Shown: one piece after another, positions 44,799 through 54,296 of the stretch | Layout: each line of letters begins with the position of its first letter | Numbering within the stretch: the first letter of the stretch is position 1 | Notes under the pieces: generated by a model | Databases searched by the model: none | Seen by the model: only the letters and a program-made list of their open reading frames with translations | What the model was told of the DNA's origin: nothing | Translations under genes and position numbers: made by a program | From: Roseococcus microcysteis | GTDB taxonomy: Bacteria; Pseudomonadota; Alphaproteobacteria; Acetobacterales; Acetobacteraceae | Length of the DNA stretch: 64,000 nucleotides | NCBI RefSeq assembly: GCF_014764365.1 | Contig: NZ_CP061718.1 | Coordinates: 930,001 to 994,000 of the forward strand | Reading direction: 5' to 3'

Positions 44799-45560
44799 CT
44801 AGGCCGCCGGAACGCCCGATGCGCGCAGCCGCAGCGCCAGCGGCGGGTCGTCGGTCGCCATCGCGTCCACACCCAGGCGCAGGGCGCGGTGGATGGTGGG
44901 CGCATGGTTCGCCCCCCAGACGGAAAGCCGCAGCCCCTCGGCCCGCAGCGCGTCGCGCAGGGCGACATCGGACAGGCCCTCGGGCACGCCCAGCTCGGTC
45001 GCGCCGCAGCTGCGGCACATGGCCGCCGCGTCACGCGGGCGCATGCCGCGCAGCACGCGCCCCTCGGCCAGCCAGACGGTCTGGGCGAAGCCGCCAATGG
45101 CCGCGGCCTCGGCGACATTCGCCGCCTCGAAGCTCATGAAGACGGTGCGGGGGCGCATGCCGTGCTGGTCCACCACCGCGGCGCAGCGGGCGACCAGGCC
45201 CGGATAGGGCCGGCCCTGGGCATCGGCCTTCACCTCCAGCCGCAGCACCTGCCCGCCCCCATGGATCAGCCGCGCGGCGTGGGAGAGGTGCGGGATGGTC
45301 TCGCCCCCCGTGCCGCGCACGCGAAGCTGGGCCAGCGCCTCCCAGGACTGCGTCACGACCGGCCCCTGCCCGTCCGTCATGCGATCCAGCGTGGCGTCGT
45401 GCATGACCACCGGCTCGCCATCGGCCGAGGCATGGACATCCAGCTCCACCTGTTCGGTGGGCCACTTCAGCGCCTCGCGGATGGCGAGAAGGCTGTTCTC
45501 AGGCCAGAGGAAGGCACCGCCGCGGTGGCTGGCGATTTCGGGGAGGGTCAGGTTGTGCAT
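44799..45560 (-). CDS. Glycerophosphodiester phosphodiesterase
   Basis: 253 residues. GDPD motifs: [15 protein letters not shown] (His, catalytic Glu), [17 protein letters not shown] (metal-binding Glu/Asp, second His), LRLEVKAD and ATDDP near the end. Cleaves glycerophosphodiesters to glycerol-3-phosphate and an alcohol. No signal peptide, so the cytoplasmic UgpQ-like type. ATG 45558-45560 begins [14 protein letters not shown]; an in-frame upstream extension overlaps the neighbouring gene. It follows the flagellin-modification genes by 32 bp on the same strand. Confidence 0.9.
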
Positions 45561-45592
45561 GTCATATTGCTGGCCGGGAGGCGGCCAGGCCG

Positions 45593-47857
45593 TCAAGCCA
45601 CTCGCTGTTCCCAGGCCTGCCGCAGCGCCTGCCCCAGGTTCCGCCCAAAGCGTGGCCCGTCACACAGCGGCGAAGCCGCCACCCGCGCCCGCAGCCCGGC
45701 GCGCAGTTCCGCGAGCGCCCGCAGGTCCGTGGCGCGGCGCAGCGCCTCGGCCACATAGGCGTCCTCATCGGGCACGGCCCAATCCGGCAGGCCCACATTG
45801 GAGAGGTGCGACAGGGCGTGGCGGCCCGCGAAACCCTCGCTGACCTTGGTCAGCACCGGCACGCCCATCCAGAGCGATTCGCAGACCGTCAGGCCGCCCG
45901 TATAGGGAAAGGGGTCCAGCGAGAGGTCGATCTCGCCATAGGCGGCCAGCAGCGCCTCATGCGGCACGGCGCCGTGCAGTTCCAGCCGGTCCAGTGGCAT
46001 GCCGAGCGCGGCGGCGCGTTCCAGGAAGGCGGCGCGCGTGGGGTCATCGCCCAGGGCATGGGTCCGCAGCACCAGGCGCGCCGTGGGCAGCGCTGCCAGG
46101 ATGCGCGCCCAGGCACGCAGCACCGCGGGCGTCACCTTGGCCAGGTTGTTGTAGCAGCCGAAGGTGACATGGCCGCGTGCCAGGGCGGGCAGCGGCGCCA
46201 CATCCGGCGCGCGGTCGGGCGGGACGTAGCAGCAATAGCCATCGGGCATGCGCAGCAGGCGTTCGGTGTAATGGGGTTCGAAGCCCTCGGGCGTTTCCCA
46301 GCGGTCGGTCAGCATCCAGTCCATGTTGGGCACGCCGGAGCTGGCCGATTGCGACCCCACCCACTTGATCTGCACCGGCGCCGCGCGGTGGCGCAGCACC
46401 CGCACCCGCCCGCCCTGCCCATGGCCGCTGAGGTCAATCAGGATGTCCAGCGCCTCCGCGCGCAGACGTTCCAGCACGAGTTGGTCTCGCGCCCCCGGCT
46501 CGAAGCTGATCCAGCGGTCGGCGCGCGCGCGGAAGCGCCGCGCCAGCGGGTCGTCGCGGTCGGTGAGGCTGAACGCCACCACCTCGAATTCCTCGCGCGG
46601 CAGGTGTTCAATGGCCGGCAGGGTCAGCCACCCCACCGGATGCCGGCCTAGATTGGACGAGAGCAGCCCCACCCGCAGCCGCTCGCCGGGCGGGCGCGCC
46701 ACGGGCACATAGGGGTTGATGCCCTGCGACAGCCGCTGCTTCAGCGCACGGGCGGCTTCGCCCAGCGCCGCGGAGGTCGCCATGTCGGGGTGGTAGGGGC
46801 CGACATTGCACAGGGCATGGACCAGCGCGTTCTCGCCCCCCGCGGCCTCGGTGGCGAGCCGCGCCTCCTCCTGCAATCCCTGCGAGACGAGCACCAGGGC
46901 CAGCGTGGCATGGGTGCGTTCATCCCCGCCCAGATCGGCCAGGGTGGCGCGCAGTGATTCCGCCGCCTCGGCCAGGCGGTGCAGGCGGAACAGGATTTCG
47001 CCATGGCCCACGCGCAGGCCGCGCTCGCCGGGGGCCAGGGCCACCGCGCGCTCAAAGACCGGCAGGGCCGCCTTGTAGGCGCGCTCCCGCCACAGCCCAT
47101 GGGCAAGGCCCGAAAGGATGGCGACATCCTCCGGCGCCAGCGCCTCGGCCAGGTGCCAATGGCGCAGCCCCTCCCGCGTCTGCCCGAAGGCGTCGAGCAG
47201 GGTGGCATGGGCCGCGATCCGCGCGGGGGAGAGAGGGTCCGCCGCCAGCGCCTCCTCGCTGGCCGCGCGCGCGCCTTCCGCGCCGTCCCGCGCCAGCACC
47301 GCCTCGCTCCAGACGACACCGGCCAGGCCCGGGGCGCCTTCCCGGGCCAGCAGCGGCGCGGCCAGAGCCAGGGCCTCGACGGGCTGGTTCGCCGCCACAT
47401 GGGCGCGGGCCAGTTCCAGCGCGATGCCCTCATCCTGGGGGACGTAAAGCAGGGCTTCGCGCAGGAGTGTGACCGAAGCCTCCGCCCGGCCCTCGGCACG
47501 GGCCAGTTCGGCCAGGCCGCAAAGTGCCGCGACATGTCCGGGGTCCCGCACCAGCGCGGCCTCATAACCCTGGCGCGCGGCCTCGGCCTGGCCCCGCAGA
47601 TGCGCGAGGCGGCCGCGGCGGAAATGCGGTTCGGGATGATGGGGCAGCCGTTCCAGCGCGGTGGCGAGAGGGCCCGCCGCGGCGTCAAGCCGGCCCAGAT
47701 CCATCCGCGCCATGGCGAGGTTCAGCGCGGCCAGCCCATCCCAGGGCGCCTCGGCCAGCACGGCCTCCAGCAGGGGCAGCGCGGCCTGGGTGCGCCCCTG
47801 GCGCAGCAGGGCCAGGGCGGCCTGGAAGGCCGAGGCCTCGCCGGGCAGGCCGTCCAT
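45593..47857 (-). CDS. TPR-SPINDLY (GT41) glycosyltransferase, FlmG-like flagellin glycosyltransferase
   Basis: 754 residues. The N-terminal half (about 10-340) is a run of tetratricopeptide repeats; the C-terminal part (about 360-754) is an O-GlcNAc-transferase/SPINDLY GT-B fold with GRHPVGWLTLP (His406, matching the active-site His of OGT), CYNNLAKVTP (Lys574, matching the donor-binding Lys) and DPFPYTGGLTVCESLWMGVP. Caulobacter FlmG has the same TPR plus GT layout and glycosylates flagellin. Here the gene is 4 bp from a TPR-methyltransferase and 2 kb from flagellin on one strand, strongly suggesting flagellin as acceptor. The donor sugar is unknown. The start is ATG 47855-47857 with a GAGG site. 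Confidence 0.88.
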   Translation of the reverse strand: MDGLPGEASAFQAALALLRQGRTQAALPLLEAVLAEAPWDGLAALNLAMARMDLGRLDAAAGPLATALERLPHHPEPHFRRGRLAHLRGQAEAARQGYEAALVRDPGHVAALCGLAELARAEGRAEASVTLLREALLYVPQDEGIALELARAHVAANQPVEALALAAPLLAREGAPGLAGVVWSEAVLARDGAEGARAASEEALAADPLSPARIAAHATLLDAFGQTREGLRHWHLAEALAPEDVAILSGLAHGLWRERAYKAALPVFERAVALAPGERGLRVGHGEILFRLHRLAEAAESLRATLADLGGDERTHATLALVLVSQGLQEEARLATEAAGGENALVHALCNVGPYHPDMATSAALGEAARALKQRLSQGINPYVPVARPPGERLRVGLLSSNLGRHPVGWLTLPAIEHLPREEFEVVAFSLTDRDDPLARRFRARADRWISFEPGARDQLVLERLRAEALDILIDLSGHGQGGRVRVLRHRAAPVQIKWVGSQSASSGVPNMDWMLTDRWETPEGFEPHYTERLLRMPDGYCCYVPPDRAPDVAPLPALARGHVTFGCYNNLAKVTPAVLRAWARILAALPTARLVLRTHALGDDPTRAAFLERAAALGMPLDRLELHGAVPHEALLAAYGEIDLSLDPFPYTGGLTVCESLWMGVPVLTKVSEGFAGRHALSHLSNVGLPDWAVPDEDAYVAEALRRATDLRALAELRAGLRARVAASPLCDGPRFGRNLGQALRQAWEQRVA

Positions 47858-47861
47858 CGCC

Positions 47862-49289
47862 TCAACCCTCGCGGCGGACGAGGGCGATGACGCCCGGTAC
47901 GGTGGCCTCGCCCTCCCAGCGCAGCGTCTCCTCGCGGAACTCCAGCGTGGCGAGCCCCGCGCGTTCCAGCACGGCGCGCAGATAGCCGGGGTCATGACGG
48001 TAGCGAGCACTGGCCTGCAATTCCCAGCCGCCCTCAGCCGCGCCGGATTCGATGCTCAGCGCGACAAGGCCGCCCGGCTTGAGGCGGGAGGCGACAGCAC
48101 CGAGAACCGCATCCAGGCGACCAAAGTAGCAGAGCACATCCGACAGCAGGATCAGATCATAGAGGGTGGTGTCGGCGGCCATCGCCGCGGTGATCTCGGC
48201 GCAGCGCAGCTCGGTGTAGACGCACTTGGCTCGTGCCTCCTCCAGCATGCGCGGCGAGAGGTCCACACCCACCAGCCGCCCGCCCAGCATGTCGTGCAAG
48301 GTGGCGCCCATCAGGCCGGTGCCGCAGCCAAGGTCGAGCACATCGCCCAGATGCCGGCCGCCAGGGGCATAGCCCTGGCCCTCGATCAGCTTCAGCATAA
48401 CGCCCGGCACCCGGTAGCCGAGCGCGAAGAGCGCGGCCTCGAAGCGGTTCGCGTAGCCGTCGAAGACGTCGGCCACGTAGCGGTCGCTCGCGCGGTCCGG
48501 GGCGGCGCCGGCATTGGTCATCGCCGCCGCGAGGTGCTGGAGATATGTGTCCGCCGGGTCGAGCCGCGCGGCCTCGGCATAGGCCTCCGCCGCGGCTTCC
48601 TGCTGGCCAAGCCTCTGCCGCGCCTGACCGAGCACGGAATAGAGCGCCGCCTCGCCCTGCTGCCGCCCCAGCGCCCCTTCGATCAGCGCGATGGCCTTGT
48701 GCGGATCGCCGCCCAGCAGCGCGTTCTGCGCGCGTAGCGGCACGATGCCGCGCGCATAGGGCGCCATCGAATGCGCCAGCGCATAAAGCTCCTCGGCCGC
48801 GGCGTGGCGTCCGCCGCGCATCATGGCCATGGCCAGCATGGCCGAACGGTGCGGTGCCTCCGGCTCGGCCACGAAGGCCTGGTGGAACAGGAAGATGGCC
48901 TCGTCATGCCGCCCGGCCTCGGACAGGCAGGTGGCCAGCAGCGCCTTGGCGTCACGGTCGGAAGGAGCGGCCATCACGGCCGCGGCCGCGTCATCCATGG
49001 CGCCATCCGCATGGCCCAGGGCGCGCCGGATGCGGGCGCGCAGCAGGCGCAGCGCGGCATCATCGCGCAGGGTGAGTGCCGCGTCAGCGGCGATGAGTGC
49101 GGCCGGCGCGTCGTCGCTTTCCATCAGCGCCTCGGCCAGCAGGCCATGCGCCTCGGCGGGTGCCGCGGGCAGCGCGGCGGCGCGCGAAAGCAGCAGCGCG
49201 GCATCGGCTGGCCGGCGGTCGCGCAGCAGGTCGCGCCCGCGGTCGAGGAGGCGCAGGGCAGCCGTGTCATGCGTGGCGTGGATGTTCAT
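47862..49289 (-). CDS. TPR-repeat SAM-dependent methyltransferase
   Basis: 475 residues. Residues 1 to about 250 are tetratricopeptide repeats (Ala-rich helices such as YSVLGQARQRLGQQEAAAEAY); residues about 260-475 are a class I methyltransferase with motif I DVLDLGCGTGLMG (around 317-328), VGVDLSPRML and LILLSDVLCYFG. The TPR part resembles that of the adjoining glycosyltransferase in type and position. I infer that it docks on the same flagellin target and methylates its glycan or protein; no direct evidence. It sits 10 bp after flaF and 4 bp before the glycosyltransferase. Confidence 0.85.
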   Translation of the reverse strand: MNIHATHDTAALRLLDRGRDLLRDRRPADAALLLSRAAALPAAPAEAHGLLAEALMESDDAPAALIAADAALTLRDDAALRLLRARIRRALGHADGAMDDAAAAVMAAPSDRDAKALLATCLSEAGRHDEAIFLFHQAFVAEPEAPHRSAMLAMAMMRGGRHAAAEELYALAHSMAPYARGIVPLRAQNALLGGDPHKAIALIEGALGRQQGEAALYSVLGQARQRLGQQEAAAEAYAEAARLDPADTYLQHLAAAMTNAGAAPDRASDRYVADVFDGYANRFEAALFALGYRVPGVMLKLIEGQGYAPGGRHLGDVLDLGCGTGLMGATLHDMLGGRLVGVDLSPRMLEEARAKCVYTELRCAEITAAMAADTTLYDLILLSDVLCYFGRLDAVLGAVASRLKPGGLVALSIESGAAEGGWELQASARYRHDPGYLRAVLERAGLATLEFREETLRWEGEATVPGVIALVRREG

Positions 49290-49299
49290 GGCCGCCCCC

Positions 49300-49638
49300 T
49301 CAGTTCCACAGCGCGCCGGCCATCTGCTCGTTCATCTCGATGATGAACGCCGCGTCAGGCGCCTCGGCGTCGAGCTCGCGCAGCACGGCGCGGGCGAGCG
49401 AGGCGATCTGCGCGCGCAACGGCACGGCCAGGCGATTGGTGGGGTCCAGCACCGAGTCGAGCACGGCATCCCAAAGGCGCCGGTTGTCCGCGATGGCACG
49501 GGCCTGCGCGATGCCGCCTTCGGTGCCCGCGTCGCGCAGCGCGCGGGTCGCGCGCGCGAAGACCTCGGCCTCCATCTGCTTGGGCGTGAGCTGGCGGCGA
49601 TACCGGCCGGCAGAGGATGTGTTGCTGGCAAAGGACAT
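49300..49638 (-). CDS. flaF: Flagellin synthesis regulator FlaF
   Basis: 112 residues. The core RRLWDAVLDSVLDPTNRL and LRAQIASLARAVLREL match FlaF, which in Caulobacter is needed for flagellin translation and secretion opposite FlbT. No flbT gene is in the window. ATG 49636-49638 gives MSFASNTSSAGRYRR; the frame is open 12 codons further. Located directly downstream of flagellin, as usual. The 152-bp gap to flagellin shows no clear terminator or promoter. Confidence 0.9.
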   Translation of the reverse strand: MSFASNTSSAGRYRRQLTPKQMEAEVFARATRALRDAGTEGGIAQARAIADNRRLWDAVLDSVLDPTNRLAVPLRAQIASLARAVLRELDAEAPDAAFIIEMNEQMAGALWN

Positions 49639-49790
49639 GGTGGGAAACCTCCCGCGATGGATTTCGGAACCCAAACGGGCGCGCCCTCGGGGCCGCGACG
49701 CCGTGCATGGGGAAAATTCGGGAACGCATCAGCCAAGGGGGCTGCGCGGAAGGGGGGAAGGCGGCCTCCTGCCAGCCTCCGTTCAAGGTC

Positions 49791-50696
49791 TTACCGGAAG
49801 AGCGAGAGCAGAACCTGCGGCGCCTGGTTGGCGATGCCGAGCGCCTGGGAACCGAGCTGCTGACGGATCTGCAGGGACTGCAGCCGCGCGGATTCCTTGG
49901 CGAGATCGGCGTCGATCAGGGCGCCCATGCCGGCTTCCTGCGCGTCCATCTTGGCCTTGTTGAAGTTGATCTGGCTGTCCACGTAACGGCTGTAGCTGCC
50001 GAGGTTGTTCAGCGAGGTCAGGGTGTTGTTGATGGCGACATTGACCGCGCCGCCCGTCGTCAGGGCGTTGCTGAACTCGGTCAGGGCGGCCAGAAGCGAG
50101 GCCCCCGTCAGCATCGTGGCGCCGTTGTAGCCCACGGTGGTCAGCCCGGTGAAGGCAGCCGCGCCATTGATGGCCGCGGTCGCGATCTTGGCGAAGGAGT
50201 AGGTCGCGCCCTCGCCGTTACGCACCGTGCGGATTTCACCCAGCGTGGTCCCACCCGCCGTCGCCGCGGCGGCCGTCACCAGCATGGACTGCCCGTTGTA
50301 GCGCGTATCGGTGATGAAGTTCGCGATCTGCGAGAAGGTCTCCTTCAGCCCCGCCATGTACTGCTCGCGCTGGGCGGGCGTGATGTTGCTGTCCGAAAGC
50401 TTCACGACCGTGGCCTTCACGTCCTGCAACGCCTTGGAGACGTTCTCAAGACCGGTCCGGGTCGTGTCGAGCAGCCCCTTCGCCCCACCCAGCTGCTGGT
50501 TCGCCGAGGTGGTGGCCGCGAGGTCGCCGCGGATGCGCTCGGCCACGGCGAAAGCCGCGCCGTCATCCCGCGCATCCGCCACGCGCGAGCCGGTGGAGAT
50601 GCGCTTTTGCGTCGCCGCCATCTCCTCGTTCGTGCGGTTGAGCGACTGCAGCGCCACCATGGCGCCCAGGTTGGTATTCACGGAGTTCAGCGACAT
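49791..50696 (-). CDS. fliC: Flagellin
   Basis: 301 residues, a short flagellin with N-terminal D0/D1 (VNTNLGAMVALQSLNRT, STGSRVADARDDGAAFAVAE) and C-terminal D1/D0 (DLAKESARLQSLQIRQQLG, ANQAPQVLLSLFR) helices. The middle (about 130-225) is rich in Thr, Ser, Ala and Gly and would be the exposed, glycosylatable part. AAAGGA lies 10 bp before the ATG. The surrounding genes encode glycan-making enzymes on the same strand. No sigma-28 or sigma-54 promoter could be recognised in the 97-bp upstream gap. Confidence 0.96.
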   Translation of the reverse strand: MSLNSVNTNLGAMVALQSLNRTNEEMAATQKRISTGSRVADARDDGAAFAVAERIRGDLAATTSANQQLGGAKGLLDTTRTGLENVSKALQDVKATVVKLSDSNITPAQREQYMAGLKETFSQIANFITDTRYNGQSMLVTAAAATAGGTTLGEIRTVRNGEGATYSFAKIATAAINGAAAFTGLTTVGYNGATMLTGASLLAALTEFSNALTTGGAVNVAINNTLTSLNNLGSYSRYVDSQINFNKAKMDAQEAGMGALIDADLAKESARLQSLQIRQQLGSQALGIANQAPQVLLSLFR

Positions 50697-50793
50697 TGGT
50701 CTTTTTCCTTTGTCAGATGCGGCCCTCGGATTTCGGGGACCATCCGCCGTGTAGGAGACGAAGGGTTAAGGAAGGCTTGCGCCGCCTCCGCCT

Positions 50794-51795
50794 TCAGAAC
50801 ATGCGCTGCGTCCAGGTGCGCGGCGTCCTGTCGCTGACGATCTCGATGTCGAGGTGGTAGCGGAACTTGCGCGGCCCCACCTTGCGGATGAAGTCCGTGA
50901 TGGAGGCCAGCCCGTCCTCCAGCTTCGTCGTGGTGCGATAGCCCAGCAGCCGCCGCGCCTTGTCGGCCGAGCAGGTGGCGAACTTCACCTCCTGCGGCCG
51001 GCCGGGGACGTAGATGGGCGTGCCGGTGAAGTTGGTGAGCTTGGCGAGCACCCGCGACAGCTCATTGATGCTCACGAACTCCTCATCGGGGCCGATGTTC
51101 ACCGTCTCGCCCAGCGCCACGTCGTCGAGGCCCATGGCCAGCAGGCAGGAGAGGCAGTCCTCGACGTAGGAGAAGCAGCGCTTCTGCTCGCCATCGCCAT
51201 AGATGATGGGCGGGCGGCCTTGCAGCATCAGGTTCGCCATGATGGAGGCCACGTTGCGGTAGGGGTCGTCGAATTTCTGCCGCGGGCCGATGATGTTGTG
51301 CGGCACCGCGATGGACCACTCTACCCCGTGCACGGCGCAGAGGTTCTTCAGCGCCTCCTCCGCCGCCACCTTCGCGATTCCATAGGGATCCTGCGGGCGG
51401 GGCGTGTAATCCTCGCGGAACGGCACCTCATTGCTGCCGTAGCGCGCCATGGAGGAGCAGAAGACGATGCGCCGCGCCTTGTTCGCGATGGCCGCCGAAA
51501 ACAGCGAGACCGAGCCGCTCACGATGTTGTCCATCACCAGCGCGGGCGAGAAGACGGACAGCCCCTCATAGGCCGTGGCCGCGCAGTGGTAGACCAGCTC
51601 GCAGCCCTGCGAGATCTTCTGCATCGCGTTGAAGTCGCGGCAGTCATACTGGTAGAATTCGGCCTCGGGCGGGACGTGCCACAGCTCGCCGCCCAGCAGC
51701 GTGTCGCAGCCCACGACATGATGGCCCATGCCGATCAGCCGCTCGGCCAGGTGGCTGCCGAGAAAGCCCGCGATGCCGCTGACGAAGATTCGCAT
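50794..51795 (-). CDS. NAD-dependent sugar epimerase/dehydratase (extended SDR)
   Basis: 333 residues. Dinucleotide motif SGIAGFLGSHLAERL (GxxGxxG), catalytic SSMARYG...YGIAK (Ser, Tyr-x-x-x-Lys). The sequence is of the UDP-glucose 4-epimerase / UDP-glucuronate decarboxylase type, acting on nucleotide sugars. IIYGDGEQKRCFSYVEDC is a family signature. The exact product cannot be named. It lies upstream of flagellin and 9 bp after a methyltransferase gene, so it most likely supplies the modified sugar for the flagellin glycan. Confidence 0.88.
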   Translation of the reverse strand: MRIFVSGIAGFLGSHLAERLIGMGHHVVGCDTLLGGELWHVPPEAEFYQYDCRDFNAMQKISQGCELVYHCAATAYEGLSVFSPALVMDNIVSGSVSLFSAAIANKARRIVFCSSMARYGSNEVPFREDYTPRPQDPYGIAKVAAEEALKNLCAVHGVEWSIAVPHNIIGPRQKFDDPYRNVASIMANLMLQGRPPIIYGDGEQKRCFSYVEDCLSCLLAMGLDDVALGETVNIGPDEEFVSINELSRVLAKLTNFTGTPIYVPGRPQEVKFATCSADKARRLLGYRTTTKLEDGLASITDFIRKVGPRKFRYHLDIEIVSDRTPRTWTQRMF

Positions 51796-51804
51796 GGGGT
51801 GCTC

Positions 51805-52347
51805 CTAGCGGGTGATGAGGGCGCGGATGGCCTGGCCGCCCTTGTTGTGAAGGGTGTGCTGGCGGACCTGCGCGAAGCCCGCGAGCGCGGCCACGTCGCG
51901 AATCTTGCCCTGGGTGTAGGCCGATTTGTGGAACTGGCCGGCGCCGTTCTGATTGCCGAAGAACATCGTCTGCACGATGCCCCAGCGCTGCCCCGTGTCG
52001 CGGCCAGAGCCGAAGTAATGGTCGAGCGCGCCCGTCTGGTAGAAGGCGCGGAAGCGGTCCTCGCCGGCCAGGAAGGCCTGGCAGACCCATTCGAAATCCG
52101 GCACCTCGATTTCCAGCAGCCCGCCCGGACGCAACACGCGGGCGCATTCGCGCCAGAGGCGTTCCTCCTCCGCGAAGGCGAAATGCTCGAAGACATGCTC
52201 GGCCAGGATGTGCTCCACGCTGGCATCGCCGAAGGGCATGGCCAGCACGTCCACATCTGTCCGAACGCCGGGTGCGCGCGCCACGCTGTCAATGTTGACC
52301 CAGCCCTCCAGCACCTTGGGGCCACAGCCGATATGAAGCCGCGTCAT
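51805..52347 (-). CDS. SAM-dependent methyltransferase, predicted glycan-modifying
   Basis: 180 residues. LHIGCGPKVLEGWVNID is motif I of the Methyltransf_11-type sugar/glycan methyltransferases; EHVFEHFAFAEEERLWREC and LRPGGLLEIEVPDFEW follow. No signal peptide. Its ATG overlaps the stop of the glycosyltransferase gene (ATGA at 52344-52347). Acceptor unknown; context points to a nucleotide sugar or glycan of flagellin. Confidence 0.85.
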   Translation of the reverse strand: MTRLHIGCGPKVLEGWVNIDSVARAPGVRTDVDVLAMPFGDASVEHILAEHVFEHFAFAEEERLWRECARVLRPGGLLEIEVPDFEWVCQAFLAGEDRFRAFYQTGALDHYFGSGRDTGQRWGIVQTMFFGNQNGAGQFHKSAYTQGKIRDVAALAGFAQVRQHTLHNKGGQAIRALITR

Positions 52348-53432
52348 GCCGCCACCTCCGGCCCCACCGCGAGCCCGGTCTGCGCGCGCCAGGTGGCGGC
52401 CAGCGCCTCGGCCTCCCGACCGGGTTCGAGCACCCAGAGAAGGGCCTCCACCAGCCGCATCGCCTCGACGCGCAGCCGCGTGGCCGCGCCGGTCGCGCCG
52501 CCACGCGCCACCTCGCGCGCCTGGGACAGCACCCCTGGCAGCCGGGCCGTGACCTGCGCCGCCTCGCGCACGAATGAGGCCGACCAGCGGGCGCGCAGGA
52601 TGTCGCGCGCCGCCTCGATCAGCCCCGCACGCTCGGGCGCGCTCAGGCGGGCCAGGCTGAAGGTCTCCACATGCGCCCAGGCGCAGGAGGCGTTGGGCGC
52701 CAGCGGCCCGACATCGGCGAAGACATCGCGTTCGGAACGCACGCGCGCCCAGGCCATGCCGGCATTGCGCGCCAGACGCCACAGCGGCGCGGGGCCGCCA
52801 CGCCGCAGGAAGAGCGGCTCCGGGACATGGCGTATGTGGCCGTAGAGCGCGATCTCGGCCAGGAAGGCATGGTCCCAGCCGCCACAGGCCATGGGCTGGC
52901 TGGCGAGGTCCAGGGCCTCGCGGCGATAGATCCCCCAGAAGCTCGGCGAATAGGCGTAGCGCGACATGACATGCATGGCGCGCTGCAACGGCCCGCCATC
53001 GGGCGTGTCGAGGCGGGTATGCGCCGGCACCTCGCCCAGCACCGTGCCGGCCTCGTCAATGTTCAGCGCCCCGGCATGGCACATGGCCACGTCGCGATCC
53101 GCCTGCAGCACCGCCATCAGCTTCGCCATGAAGTCGGGCGCGATCAGGTCATCGGCGCTTTTCGGCATCACGAAATCGGCGTCGCCATGGGTGAAGGCGC
53201 GGCGATAGGCGCCCACGATGCCCTGGTTCGCGCGGTGGCGCTTCAGCGCGATGCGCCCATCCCGCGCGGCCCAGAAGGCCGCGATGGCCGGCCCGCCATC
53301 GGTGGAACCGTCATCGAGCAGCGTCAGCCGCCAATGCGGCCAGCTCTGCCCCACCACCGAGGCGATGGCGCCGTCCAGCGTCGCCTCCGCGTTGTGGTAG
53401 ATCAGGTTCACGTCCAGCACGTGCTCGGACAT
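52344..53432 (-). CDS. Family 2 glycosyltransferase
   Basis: 362 residues. The GT-A domain (about 1-230) shows NLIYHNAEATLDGAIASVV, LLDDGSTDGG (nucleotide binding), NQGIVGAYRRAF and PKSADDLIAPDFM (DxD-like D-D). WDHAFLAEIALYG follows as the acceptor-side acidic motif. The C-terminal about 130 residues are helical and unassigned. It probably adds a second sugar to the flagellin glycan or works on a precursor. Cytoplasmic; no membrane segments. Confidence 0.88.
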   Translation of the reverse strand: MSEHVLDVNLIYHNAEATLDGAIASVVGQSWPHWRLTLLDDGSTDGGPAIAAFWAARDGRIALKRHRANQGIVGAYRRAFTHGDADFVMPKSADDLIAPDFMAKLMAVLQADRDVAMCHAGALNIDEAGTVLGEVPAHTRLDTPDGGPLQRAMHVMSRYAYSPSFWGIYRREALDLASQPMACGGWDHAFLAEIALYGHIRHVPEPLFLRRGGPAPLWRLARNAGMAWARVRSERDVFADVGPLAPNASCAWAHVETFSLARLSAPERAGLIEAARDILRARWSASFVREAAQVTARLPGVLSQAREVARGGATGAATRLRVEAMRLVEALLWVLEPGREAEALAATWRAQTGLAVGPEVAA

Positions 53433-53435
53433 GTC

Positions 53436-54215
53436 TCAGACCTTCACGATCAGCCCCTGCCCCGTGGGCAGCGGCAGGACCAGCGCGCCGCGCGCGGCCG
53501 CGAAGTCCTGGAAGGCCAGCATCTGCTCCTCATGGCCGGCATAGGCGTAGTCATCCAGGATGATGACGCCGCCGGGCGAGAGCCTGTCCCAGAAGAACTC
53601 CGCCGCCGCGATCTCGGGCAGGGTGATGTTCATGTCGATGTGCAGCCAGGCCACGCGCGCGGGCGCGGCTTCGTGCAACGTGTCTGGCACCATGCCGGGC
53701 ACCAGCCGCGCATTGGGGAAGGGCGCGAAGCGGTGCCGCGCGATGGGCAGCACGTCGTCCGTGTAGTTGTTCCTGTTATGCCAGGTGCCGAGGCCCTTGG
53801 CCTCGCGCGCGCTCATCTGCTCCGTCGGGATGCCCCGGAAGGTGTCATAGAGCCAGAGCGTGCGGTCCGGCTGGGAGGCAAGGTCGATATAGGCCGCCAT
53901 GGTCCGCGACAGCAGGCCGTAATTCACCCCGCACTCGACGAAGTCACCCTCGATCAGCAGGGCCTGGCGCGCGGCCCAGCAGCAGACATAGGCCTTCCAC
54001 TCGATGCGGAGCACCTCGGGGGTCTTGTGCTGGATGAGGGGAATGAGCGGCACGGCCGAGGCCCGGAAGGCGGCCTTGAAGGCCTCGTCCCGCGCATAGG
54101 GCACGTTCAGCCCCCAGATGGCGAAGCGGTCCGCCACATGGGTGAACTTCGGCATCCGCGACGGCGGAGGCGTCTCGGTGGGCGATGGCAGGTTTTCTGC
54201 CAGGTCGGAACACAT
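53436..54215 (-). CDS. TylF/MycF-family O-methyltransferase
   Basis: 259 residues. Motif I FVECGVNYGLLSRTM, LWLYDTFRGIPTEQM, and the metal-binding LHIDMNITLPEIAAAEFFW with LSPGGVIILDDYAY are typical of the TylF/MycF sugar O-methyltransferases, which use Mg2+. It is the first gene of the eight-gene flagellin-glycan set. ATG 54213-54215 is used; a TTG three codons upstream is also in frame. A 10-bp inverted repeat ends exactly at this ATG. Substrate: probably a deoxy or amino sugar, not known. Confidence 0.87.
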   Translation of the reverse strand: MCSDLAENLPSPTETPPPSRMPKFTHVADRFAIWGLNVPYARDEAFKAAFRASAVPLIPLIQHKTPEVLRIEWKAYVCCWAARQALLIEGDFVECGVNYGLLSRTMAAYIDLASQPDRTLWLYDTFRGIPTEQMSAREAKGLGTWHNRNNYTDDVLPIARHRFAPFPNARLVPGMVPDTLHEAAPARVAWLHIDMNITLPEIAAAEFFWDRLSPGGVIILDDYAYAGHEEQMLAFQDFAAARGALVLPLPTGQGLIVKV

Positions 54216-54256
54216 CGGGCGCAAGCTCCATGTCCTGAGACCGGAACTTGCGCCCG
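54216..54256 (-). promoter_or_regulatory. Inverted repeat abutting the first start codon of the glycan operon
   Basis: CGGGCGCAAG (54216-54225) and CTTGCGCCCG (54247-54256) are perfect 10-bp arms separated by 21 nt. In the transcript the 3' arm is directly followed by the AUG at 54215, and a GGAG sequence lies at the loop/stem border. Folding would hide the ribosome site and start codon, so a translational switch is possible; a DNA-level operator is the alternative. Confidence 0.5.
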
Positions 54257-54265
54257 TGCTGGTTA

Positions 54266-54296
54266 ACGAAAGCCTGACGCCAAACCCGCGTCAGGC
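54266..54296 (-). terminator. Terminator after ilvD
   Basis: GCCTGACGC (54272-54280) and GCGTCAGGC (54288-54296) form a 9-bp stem with a 7-nt loop, 7 bp after the ilvD stop. On the minus strand it is followed by TTTCGTT. This separates ilvD from the glycan operon, whose promoter must lie in the remaining about 60 bp or inside ilvD. Confidence 0.7.

Follow-up and report, generated by a model that had tools for sequence, protein, structure and literature searches.

A two-module flagellin locus in Roseococcus microcysteis: a core with a tetratricopeptide-repeat methyltransferase and a SPINDLY-type glycosyltransferase, accompanied by a sugar cassette

The stretch of DNA analyzed here (the window) comprises 64,000 nucleotides of the 4.2-Mb single-contig genome of Roseococcus microcysteis (Acetobacteraceae; NZ_CP061718.1, positions 930,001 to 994,000), and includes, at positions 45593-54215, an island of eight consecutive genes, all on the minus strand, around the flagellin gene fliC. 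Very probably, the genes beside fliC attach sugars to flagellin and cap them with methyl groups. Gene order and domains had been proposed in an initial annotation made from the letters of the window, and both were borne out by the coordinates and by Pfam matches over the cut-off for all eight products. Read along the coding strand, the genes are:

53436-54215, minus strand: TylF-like (macrocin O-methyltransferase family) S-adenosylmethionine (SAM) methyltransferase (PF05711, 4.2e-20)
52344-53432, minus strand: GT2 glycosyltransferase of the cassette (PF00535, Glycos_transf_2, 3.7e-20)
51805-52347, minus strand: small class I SAM methyltransferase of the cassette, 180 aa (PF08241, Methyltransf_11, 1.1e-09; alignment)
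50794-51795, minus strand: nucleoside diphosphate (NDP)-sugar epimerase of the cassette, an extended short-chain dehydrogenase/reductase (PF01370, 7e-45)
49791-50696, minus strand: fliC, short flagellin, 301 aa (PF00669, Flagellin_N, 4.9e-23; PF00700, Flagellin_C, 2.1e-11)
49300-49638, minus strand: flaF, 112 aa from the ATG at 49638 (PF07309, 1.6e-14)
47862-49289, minus strand: tetratricopeptide-repeat (TPR) methyltransferase of the flagellin-linked clade, 475 aa (Methyltransf_25, 1.2e-15, plus TPR; tree)
45593-47857, minus strand: TPR-SPINDLY GT41 glycosyltransferase, 754 aa (PF13844, Glyco_transf_41, 7.7e-36, plus TPR)

The TylF-like gene starts at the ATG at 54215 (an alternative TTG lies at 54224), and SPINDLY at the ATG at 47857, its open frame opening earlier with a GTG at 48010. 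The four genes before fliC are closely packed (TylF/GT2 gap of 3 bp, GT2/methyltransferase overlap of 4 bp, methyltransferase/epimerase gap of 9 bp), as are those behind it (flaF/TPR-methyltransferase 10 bp, TPR-methyltransferase/SPINDLY 4 bp), and fliC itself is flanked by longer gaps (97 bp before, 152 bp after). The locus consists of two modules, a core (fliC-flaF-TPR-methyltransferase-SPINDLY) and a cassette (TylF-GT2-methyltransferase-epimerase). Glycosyltransferase and sugar-enzyme genes adjoin the flagellin gene, as they do in glycosylation islands, and both modules recur with the flagellin locus, the core at 34/34 loci and the cassette at 14 of 23 named loci. The description of the island as holding a full sugar-making set does not stand, since a single sugar-nucleotide enzyme is present. 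fliC is the sole strong flagellin match of the genome; PF00669 matches once more, weakly, at 2433918 (27.9 bits), probably in FlgL, and FlhA is also present.

The linkage of the core to fliC was followed in the family by mapping the window proteins onto regions, 20 kb long at most, that surround TPR-methyltransferase matches. The 34 core loci (L044-L077, the stronger matches) were chosen for carrying the TPR-methyltransferase, and they test its linkage to fliC, not its presence: fliC was found at 34/34, flaF at 33/34 and SPINDLY at 33/34, and no fliC was found at the six weaker matches (L078-L083). Among 150 family genomes, flagellin (PF00669) occurs in 122; three genomes (G111, G113, and G134), where contig ends split flagellin from the TPR-methyltransferase, stand outside the count of genomes with an adjacent core, which was read by eye from match tables and excludes G055 (where fliC has the opposite strand and the TPR-methyltransferase belongs to another clade). 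The annotation had held that glycan genes conserved in non-flagellated relatives lacking fliC would speak against a flagellin role. This check did not refute that role: among the 28 flagellin-less family genomes, only two show a TPR-methyltransferase match better than 1e-12. G113 carries a TPR-methyltransferase of the flagellar clade, together with flaF and SPINDLY, and its contig breaks off 385 bp beyond flaF; that of G034 (1.1e-36), outside the tree, resembles the non-flagellar paralogue by its match range.

Within the genus (21 genomes), flagellin is present in 19, the TPR-methyltransferase at 1e-40 in 10 and the epimerase at 1e-60 in 5; both flagellin-less genomes lack the TPR-methyltransferase. 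Flagellin is no more than 2 kb away from nine of the ten TPR-methyltransferase matches, and the tenth (G017) starts at a contig end. The same island is found in R. thiosulfatophilus RB-3 (L104) and R. suduntuyensis DSM 19979 (L105). A TPR-methyltransferase match at 1e-40 is absent from nine of the 19 flagellated genomes, of which two are incomplete (G007, 74%; G018, 57%). In the other seven (G004, G008, G009, G010, G012, G014, and G015) the best flagellin matches score 101-104 bits, vs. 60-88 bits for nine genomes with the TPR-methyltransferase and 71 for the tenth, G017, so that the core seems tied to one flagellin type and not to another; these scores suggest a second flagellin type in the genus. 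At class level, 93/387 genomes matched at 1e-30 or better, and 5 of the 40 loci fetched had fliC or flaF in the stretch. The fliC-flaF-TPR-methyltransferase-SPINDLY group is an older flagellin core, and it is not universal. Two loci show additional genes within this order (L119:2993-4721 and L122:2671-4442): FlbT separates fliC from flaF, and a DUF1217 protein stands ahead of the TPR-methyltransferase, following flaF.

A maximum-likelihood tree was built from 87 TPR-methyltransferases, leaving out L044, L045, L097, L104-L133 and proteins <330 or >620 aa, with the flagellin labels of its rows set by hand. One 42-row clade (support 97/99) holds 40 of the 42 flagellin-linked TPR-methyltransferases, with members from families f1, f41, and f28, and its two remaining rows, L090 and L164, sit at contig ends. 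By this tree, the flagellin-linked enzymes form a dedicated METHYLTRANSFERASE clade. The second TPR-methyltransferase of the R. microcysteis genome (L078:9711-10892, near 2955722, 393 aa), located away from flagellin, falls in a different supported group. The predicted structure of the flagellin-linked enzyme (mean pLDDT 89.2) combines a TPR superhelix, matching the TPR domain of human OGT (1w3b_A, rmsd 2.8, 250 columns) and SPINDLY structures, with a SAM-methyltransferase domain that matches class I enzymes including UbiG and protein N-terminal methyltransferases. Its Pfam and NCBIfam matches are to generic SAM-methyltransferase and TPR families only, no FliB model being named among them.

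Shortened forms were observed beside flagellin in two genomes: in G092 a 159-aa TPR-like frame without methyltransferase domain takes the position of the TPR-methyltransferase (L088 2745-3224), and the match that adjoins flagellin in G065 covers no more than residues 6-269 (C79:41653-42441). These TPR-only forms are an apparent natural loss of the methyltransferase half. At L185, from another family of the class, four SPINDLY-like matches stand in a row between the TPR-methyltransferase and two flagellin matches.

The cassette behaves differently from the core, and it is mobile. The epimerase profile gave 30 named loci, 23 of them also carrying the small methyltransferase and 7 the epimerase only; the named loci and the G loci come partly from the same genomes, and their counts are not independent. 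Among the 23, 14 have fliC, flaF, the TPR-methyltransferase or SPINDLY in the flank examined, with the cassette placed before fliC at 4 (the arrangement of Roseococcus and Rubritepida) and directly after SPINDLY at 10 (in other Acetobacteraceae). The existence of two arrangements at one kind of locus argues for a functional link. In the genus, the epimerase gene directly precedes fliC in 5/5 genomes carrying it. At 1e-60 the epimerase was found in 12/150 family genomes, all 12 flagellated and 9 with an adjacent core (Fisher p 0.0013, relatedness ignored). In the flanks of the 34 core loci, 3 showed the epimerase cassette, 4 had only a relative of GT2, and 27 had neither. The TylF gene leads the cassette in Roseococcus, but at ten named loci it comes after the epimerase (one a fragment, two cut short). 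One conserved eight-gene unit is ruled out by this split between core and cassette across the family, named and genus loci; the eight-gene order whose conservation had been put forward as a check dissolves into a core and a cassette of variable position, and nine flagellated genomes of the genus show no match to the TPR-methyltransferase itself at 1e-40.

Residues S114/S115, Y138, and K142 of the epimerase, which we take to be the catalytic positions of the superfamily, are invariant in 9 sequences, and its nearest solved chain is the UDP-glucose 4-epimerase 4zrm. Assignment as a LegB type was rejected (113.2 bits against a cut-off of 475, with the UDP-glucose 4-epimerase as nearest solved chain). 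Among solved structures, the TylF-like enzyme comes closest to O-methyltransferases, including mycinamicin 3''-O-methyltransferase (MycF) and NovP; besides its PF05711 match, residues D194, D221, and D222, presumably the metal ligands, are invariant in 8 sequences and align to Asp of MycF and NovP. MycF and NovP act on sugars, and VioM of Pseudomonas syringae is likewise a methyltransferase. Homologues of the GT2 enzyme occur in relatives at 42-51%. The small methyltransferase is, by its model (mean pLDDT 82), a predicted class I fold, and the structure search returned 644 matches at 0.001 or better, all generic. Relatives of the epimerase at 50-56% without cassette partners (L128-L132) were seen in records labelled Bdellovibrionaceae, Actinomarina, DPANN, proteobacterium, and Pelagibacteraceae.

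The SPINDLY protein belongs to GT41 by its PF13844 and TPR matches and by the active-site His and Lys (H495 and K665 of Arabidopsis SPY), found in 32/32 proteins. Its nearest solved relative is Arabidopsis SPY (1.3e-74), followed by XcOGT (2e-43 to 4e-43) and human OGT. H495, S496, K665, Y744, and T748 have been described as important in the plant O-fucosyltransferase, Y744 setting the size of the donor, in the available text (PMC9715652). They align here to His406, Pro407, Lys574, Tyr652, and Leu656, respectively, and the His, Lys, and Tyr are invariant in the 32 flagellar SPINDLYs >700 aa, so that the enzyme should be active with a small donor. The Pro and Leu at the positions of S496 and T748 point to a donor or acceptor unlike that of plant SPY, and the protein does not qualify as a plant-type O-fucosyltransferase. 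No match to NeuB (PF03102) was found at 0.001 in the genome, the positive control being found in Caulobacter. Pseudaminic and legionaminic acid were rejected as donors on this absent match: with FlhA present but NeuB not found, it is improbable that SPINDLY uses pseudaminic acid as Caulobacter FlmG does. A GDP-mannose 4,6-dehydratase over the cut-off (428.8 vs. 415) makes a GDP-6-deoxyhexose donor possible.

Comparable systems share parts of this arrangement. In the flagellin islands of Enterobacteriaceae, too, fliC adjoins genes for SPINDLY-type GT41 proteins, sugar enzymes and SAM methyltransferases (De Maayer and Cowan, 2016; PMC4875605). According to the text available of that work, most GT41 proteins there bear the methyltransferase domain themselves, and an island has either GT2 or GT41, the glycosyltransferase families excluding one another within a strain, whereas in the present locus the methyltransferase resides on a TPR protein apart from GT41, with a clade of its own, and both glycosyltransferases occur together; the string “tpr” appears in it 0 times (PMC4875605). 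In Caulobacter, the TPR domain of FlmG binds flagellin for glycosylation, and the likeness extends to an N-terminal TPR with C-terminal glycosyltransferase, cytoplasmic flagellin O-glycosylation and FlaF as secretion chaperone (PMC7591256, in the text available). Nevertheless, FlmG uses pseudaminic acid and needs NeuB, its catalytic domain is described as GT-B (“gt41” and “spindly” occur 0 times in the main text), and no methyltransferase partner appears in the part of the paper available (PMC7591256). The description of FlmG as a TPR plus GT41 enzyme in the initial annotation is an overstatement. The viosamine island of Pseudomonas syringae resembles the present one, as interpreted here, in placing an island-made modified sugar on flagellin, but its sugars are viosamine and rhamnose and its enzymes are others than those found here, as far as the accessible text describes them (PMC3927599). 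Literature searches by title and abstract found no description of this system, most subscription journals lying outside their coverage. The novelty claimed for the gene combination survives in part: islands with GT41 and methyltransferases are already known, and the split, clade-conserved pairing of TPR-methyltransferase and SPINDLY looks undescribed. The presence of GT2 alongside GT41 and the absent NeuB match also set the present system apart from those compared.

For the acceptor, the donor, the order of steps, the methylation sites and the chemistry we infer the following scheme. The TPR superhelix of SPINDLY would grip newly made flagellin, and one small sugar would be O-linked to Ser or Thr; this first sugar would not be a nonulosonic acid, and a GDP-6-deoxyhexose as donor is a guess. 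The TPR-methyltransferase, which has a TPR superhelix of its own, would use it to dock on that flagellin and would methylate the attached sugar, both steps preceding FlaF-assisted export. In some lineages only, an accessory layer would be built, in which an NDP-sugar supplied by the epimerase is joined to the first sugar by GT2 and O-methylated by the small methyltransferase and the TylF-like enzyme. We lean, with some reserve, toward this two-layer modification of flagellin by core and accessory cassette. A relay of SPINDLY with a dedicated orthologous group of flagellin-docking TPR-methyltransferases, in which two OGT-like TPR superhelices would grip one flagellin in succession while the sugar is added and then methylated in place, is put forward more tentatively and may well prove wrong. 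Modification of flagellin is itself well supported owing to the conserved linkage to fliC, and flagellin is the likely target of these genes; the multiply methylated oligosaccharide of the initial annotation is plausible only, and its FlmG parallel is an analogy.

Several findings weigh against the scheme. The core (TPR-methyltransferase within 6 kb of flagellin) is present in only 46 of the 122 flagellated family genomes, and one core locus (L066) has the TPR-methyltransferase and fliC with no SPINDLY within 20 kb. Two flagellin-linked TPR-methyltransferases, L185 and L188, lie outside the clade, and the similarity between the TPR parts of the TPR-methyltransferase and SPINDLY is generic (28% over 138 aa, E 0.039). 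Pro and Leu replace S496 and T748, needed in Arabidopsis SPY, in 32/32 flagellar SPINDLYs (the plant enzyme also acting on another substrate, in the text available; PMC9715652). Finally, nine of the 23 named cassette loci have no flagellar genes in the flank examined, some of them on short contigs. This last count, together with the separate contigs of cassette and flagellin in G024, G069, G071, and G111 and the 97-bp gap before fliC in Roseococcus, would also fit a cassette building some other glycan, such as a surface or storage polysaccharide, next to fliC by chance or for regulation only. We consider that improbable, given the cassette's placement before fliC in some lineages and directly after SPINDLY in others, and the presence of flagellin in all 12 family genomes with the epimerase, 9 of which have the adjacent core.

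A different doubt concerns the substrate of the TPR-methyltransferase, which could methylate the flagellin polypeptide (a lysine side chain or the N-terminus) and not the glycan, in the manner of FliB. A protein substrate is suggested by its TPR domain, the better structure matches of its catalytic domain include protein N-terminal methyltransferases (NRMT2, ScNTM1, and NTMT1), and FliB is known to methylate lysines of flagellin, as the portion of the review of Enterobacteriaceae islands at hand reports (PMC4875605). Set against this, the fold matches are generic class I, with UbiG and BioC scoring alike, and SPINDLY stands beside the TPR-methyltransferase at 33/34 loci, which suggests a shared glycan pathway; we hold polypeptide methylation to be unlikely, though deserving serious attention. 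A main role of SPINDLY and the TPR-methyltransferase in modifying regulators or various proteins of the cytoplasm, and not the filament, as Arabidopsis SPY regulates intracellular proteins in the text available (PMC9715652), is very improbable, because the loci examined link both to fliC and flaF and 26 of the 28 flagellin-less family genomes lack the TPR-methyltransferase at 1e-12.

If the relay holds, it would represent a substrate-docked glycan methyltransferase, a methylated O-glycan core common to one flagellin lineage of the Acetobacteraceae, and a swappable cassette adding strain-specific outer sugars. The 46 core-bearing genomes of the 122 flagellated ones sampled would carry an apparently unstudied flagellin modification, made, at least in this genome, without a pseudaminic-acid-type synthase. 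The TPR-methyltransferase may serve as a marker gene and as a candidate enzyme for protein-docked methylation, and core-only and core-plus-cassette species offer a natural contrast by which the layers could be separated through filament masses.

Two further features of the locus concern its boundaries and leader:

54272-54296, minus strand: terminator-like hairpin of 9 pairs after ilvD (the terminator scan found 3 such sites vs. 2.7 expected by chance)
50721-50741, minus strand: inverted repeat in the fliC leader, with similar repeats in the leaders of relatives

The hairpin behind ilvD is the likely upstream boundary of the island. At the other end, the glycerophosphodiester phosphodiesterase (GDPD) gene 3' of SPINDLY (44799-45596, minus strand) was rejected as an island part; it recurs near the loci of relatives, with varying strand and distance. 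Scans upstream of fliC gave zero full matches to the sigma-54 pattern and one loose match only to the sigma-28 pattern in 17 leaders, and a sigma-70 scan gave a single site, on the opposite strand. The consensus fold of 20 fliC leaders is weak: both sides vary in 2 of its 8 pairs, and the covariation term is 0. FlbT binds a flagellin leader in Caulobacter. In many relatives, a G+C-rich inverted repeat of two sequence types lies 20-45 nt upstream of the fliC start, and a TTAA(CC) motif (50764-50769, minus strand), often followed by TTTCA, recurs 5' of fliC.

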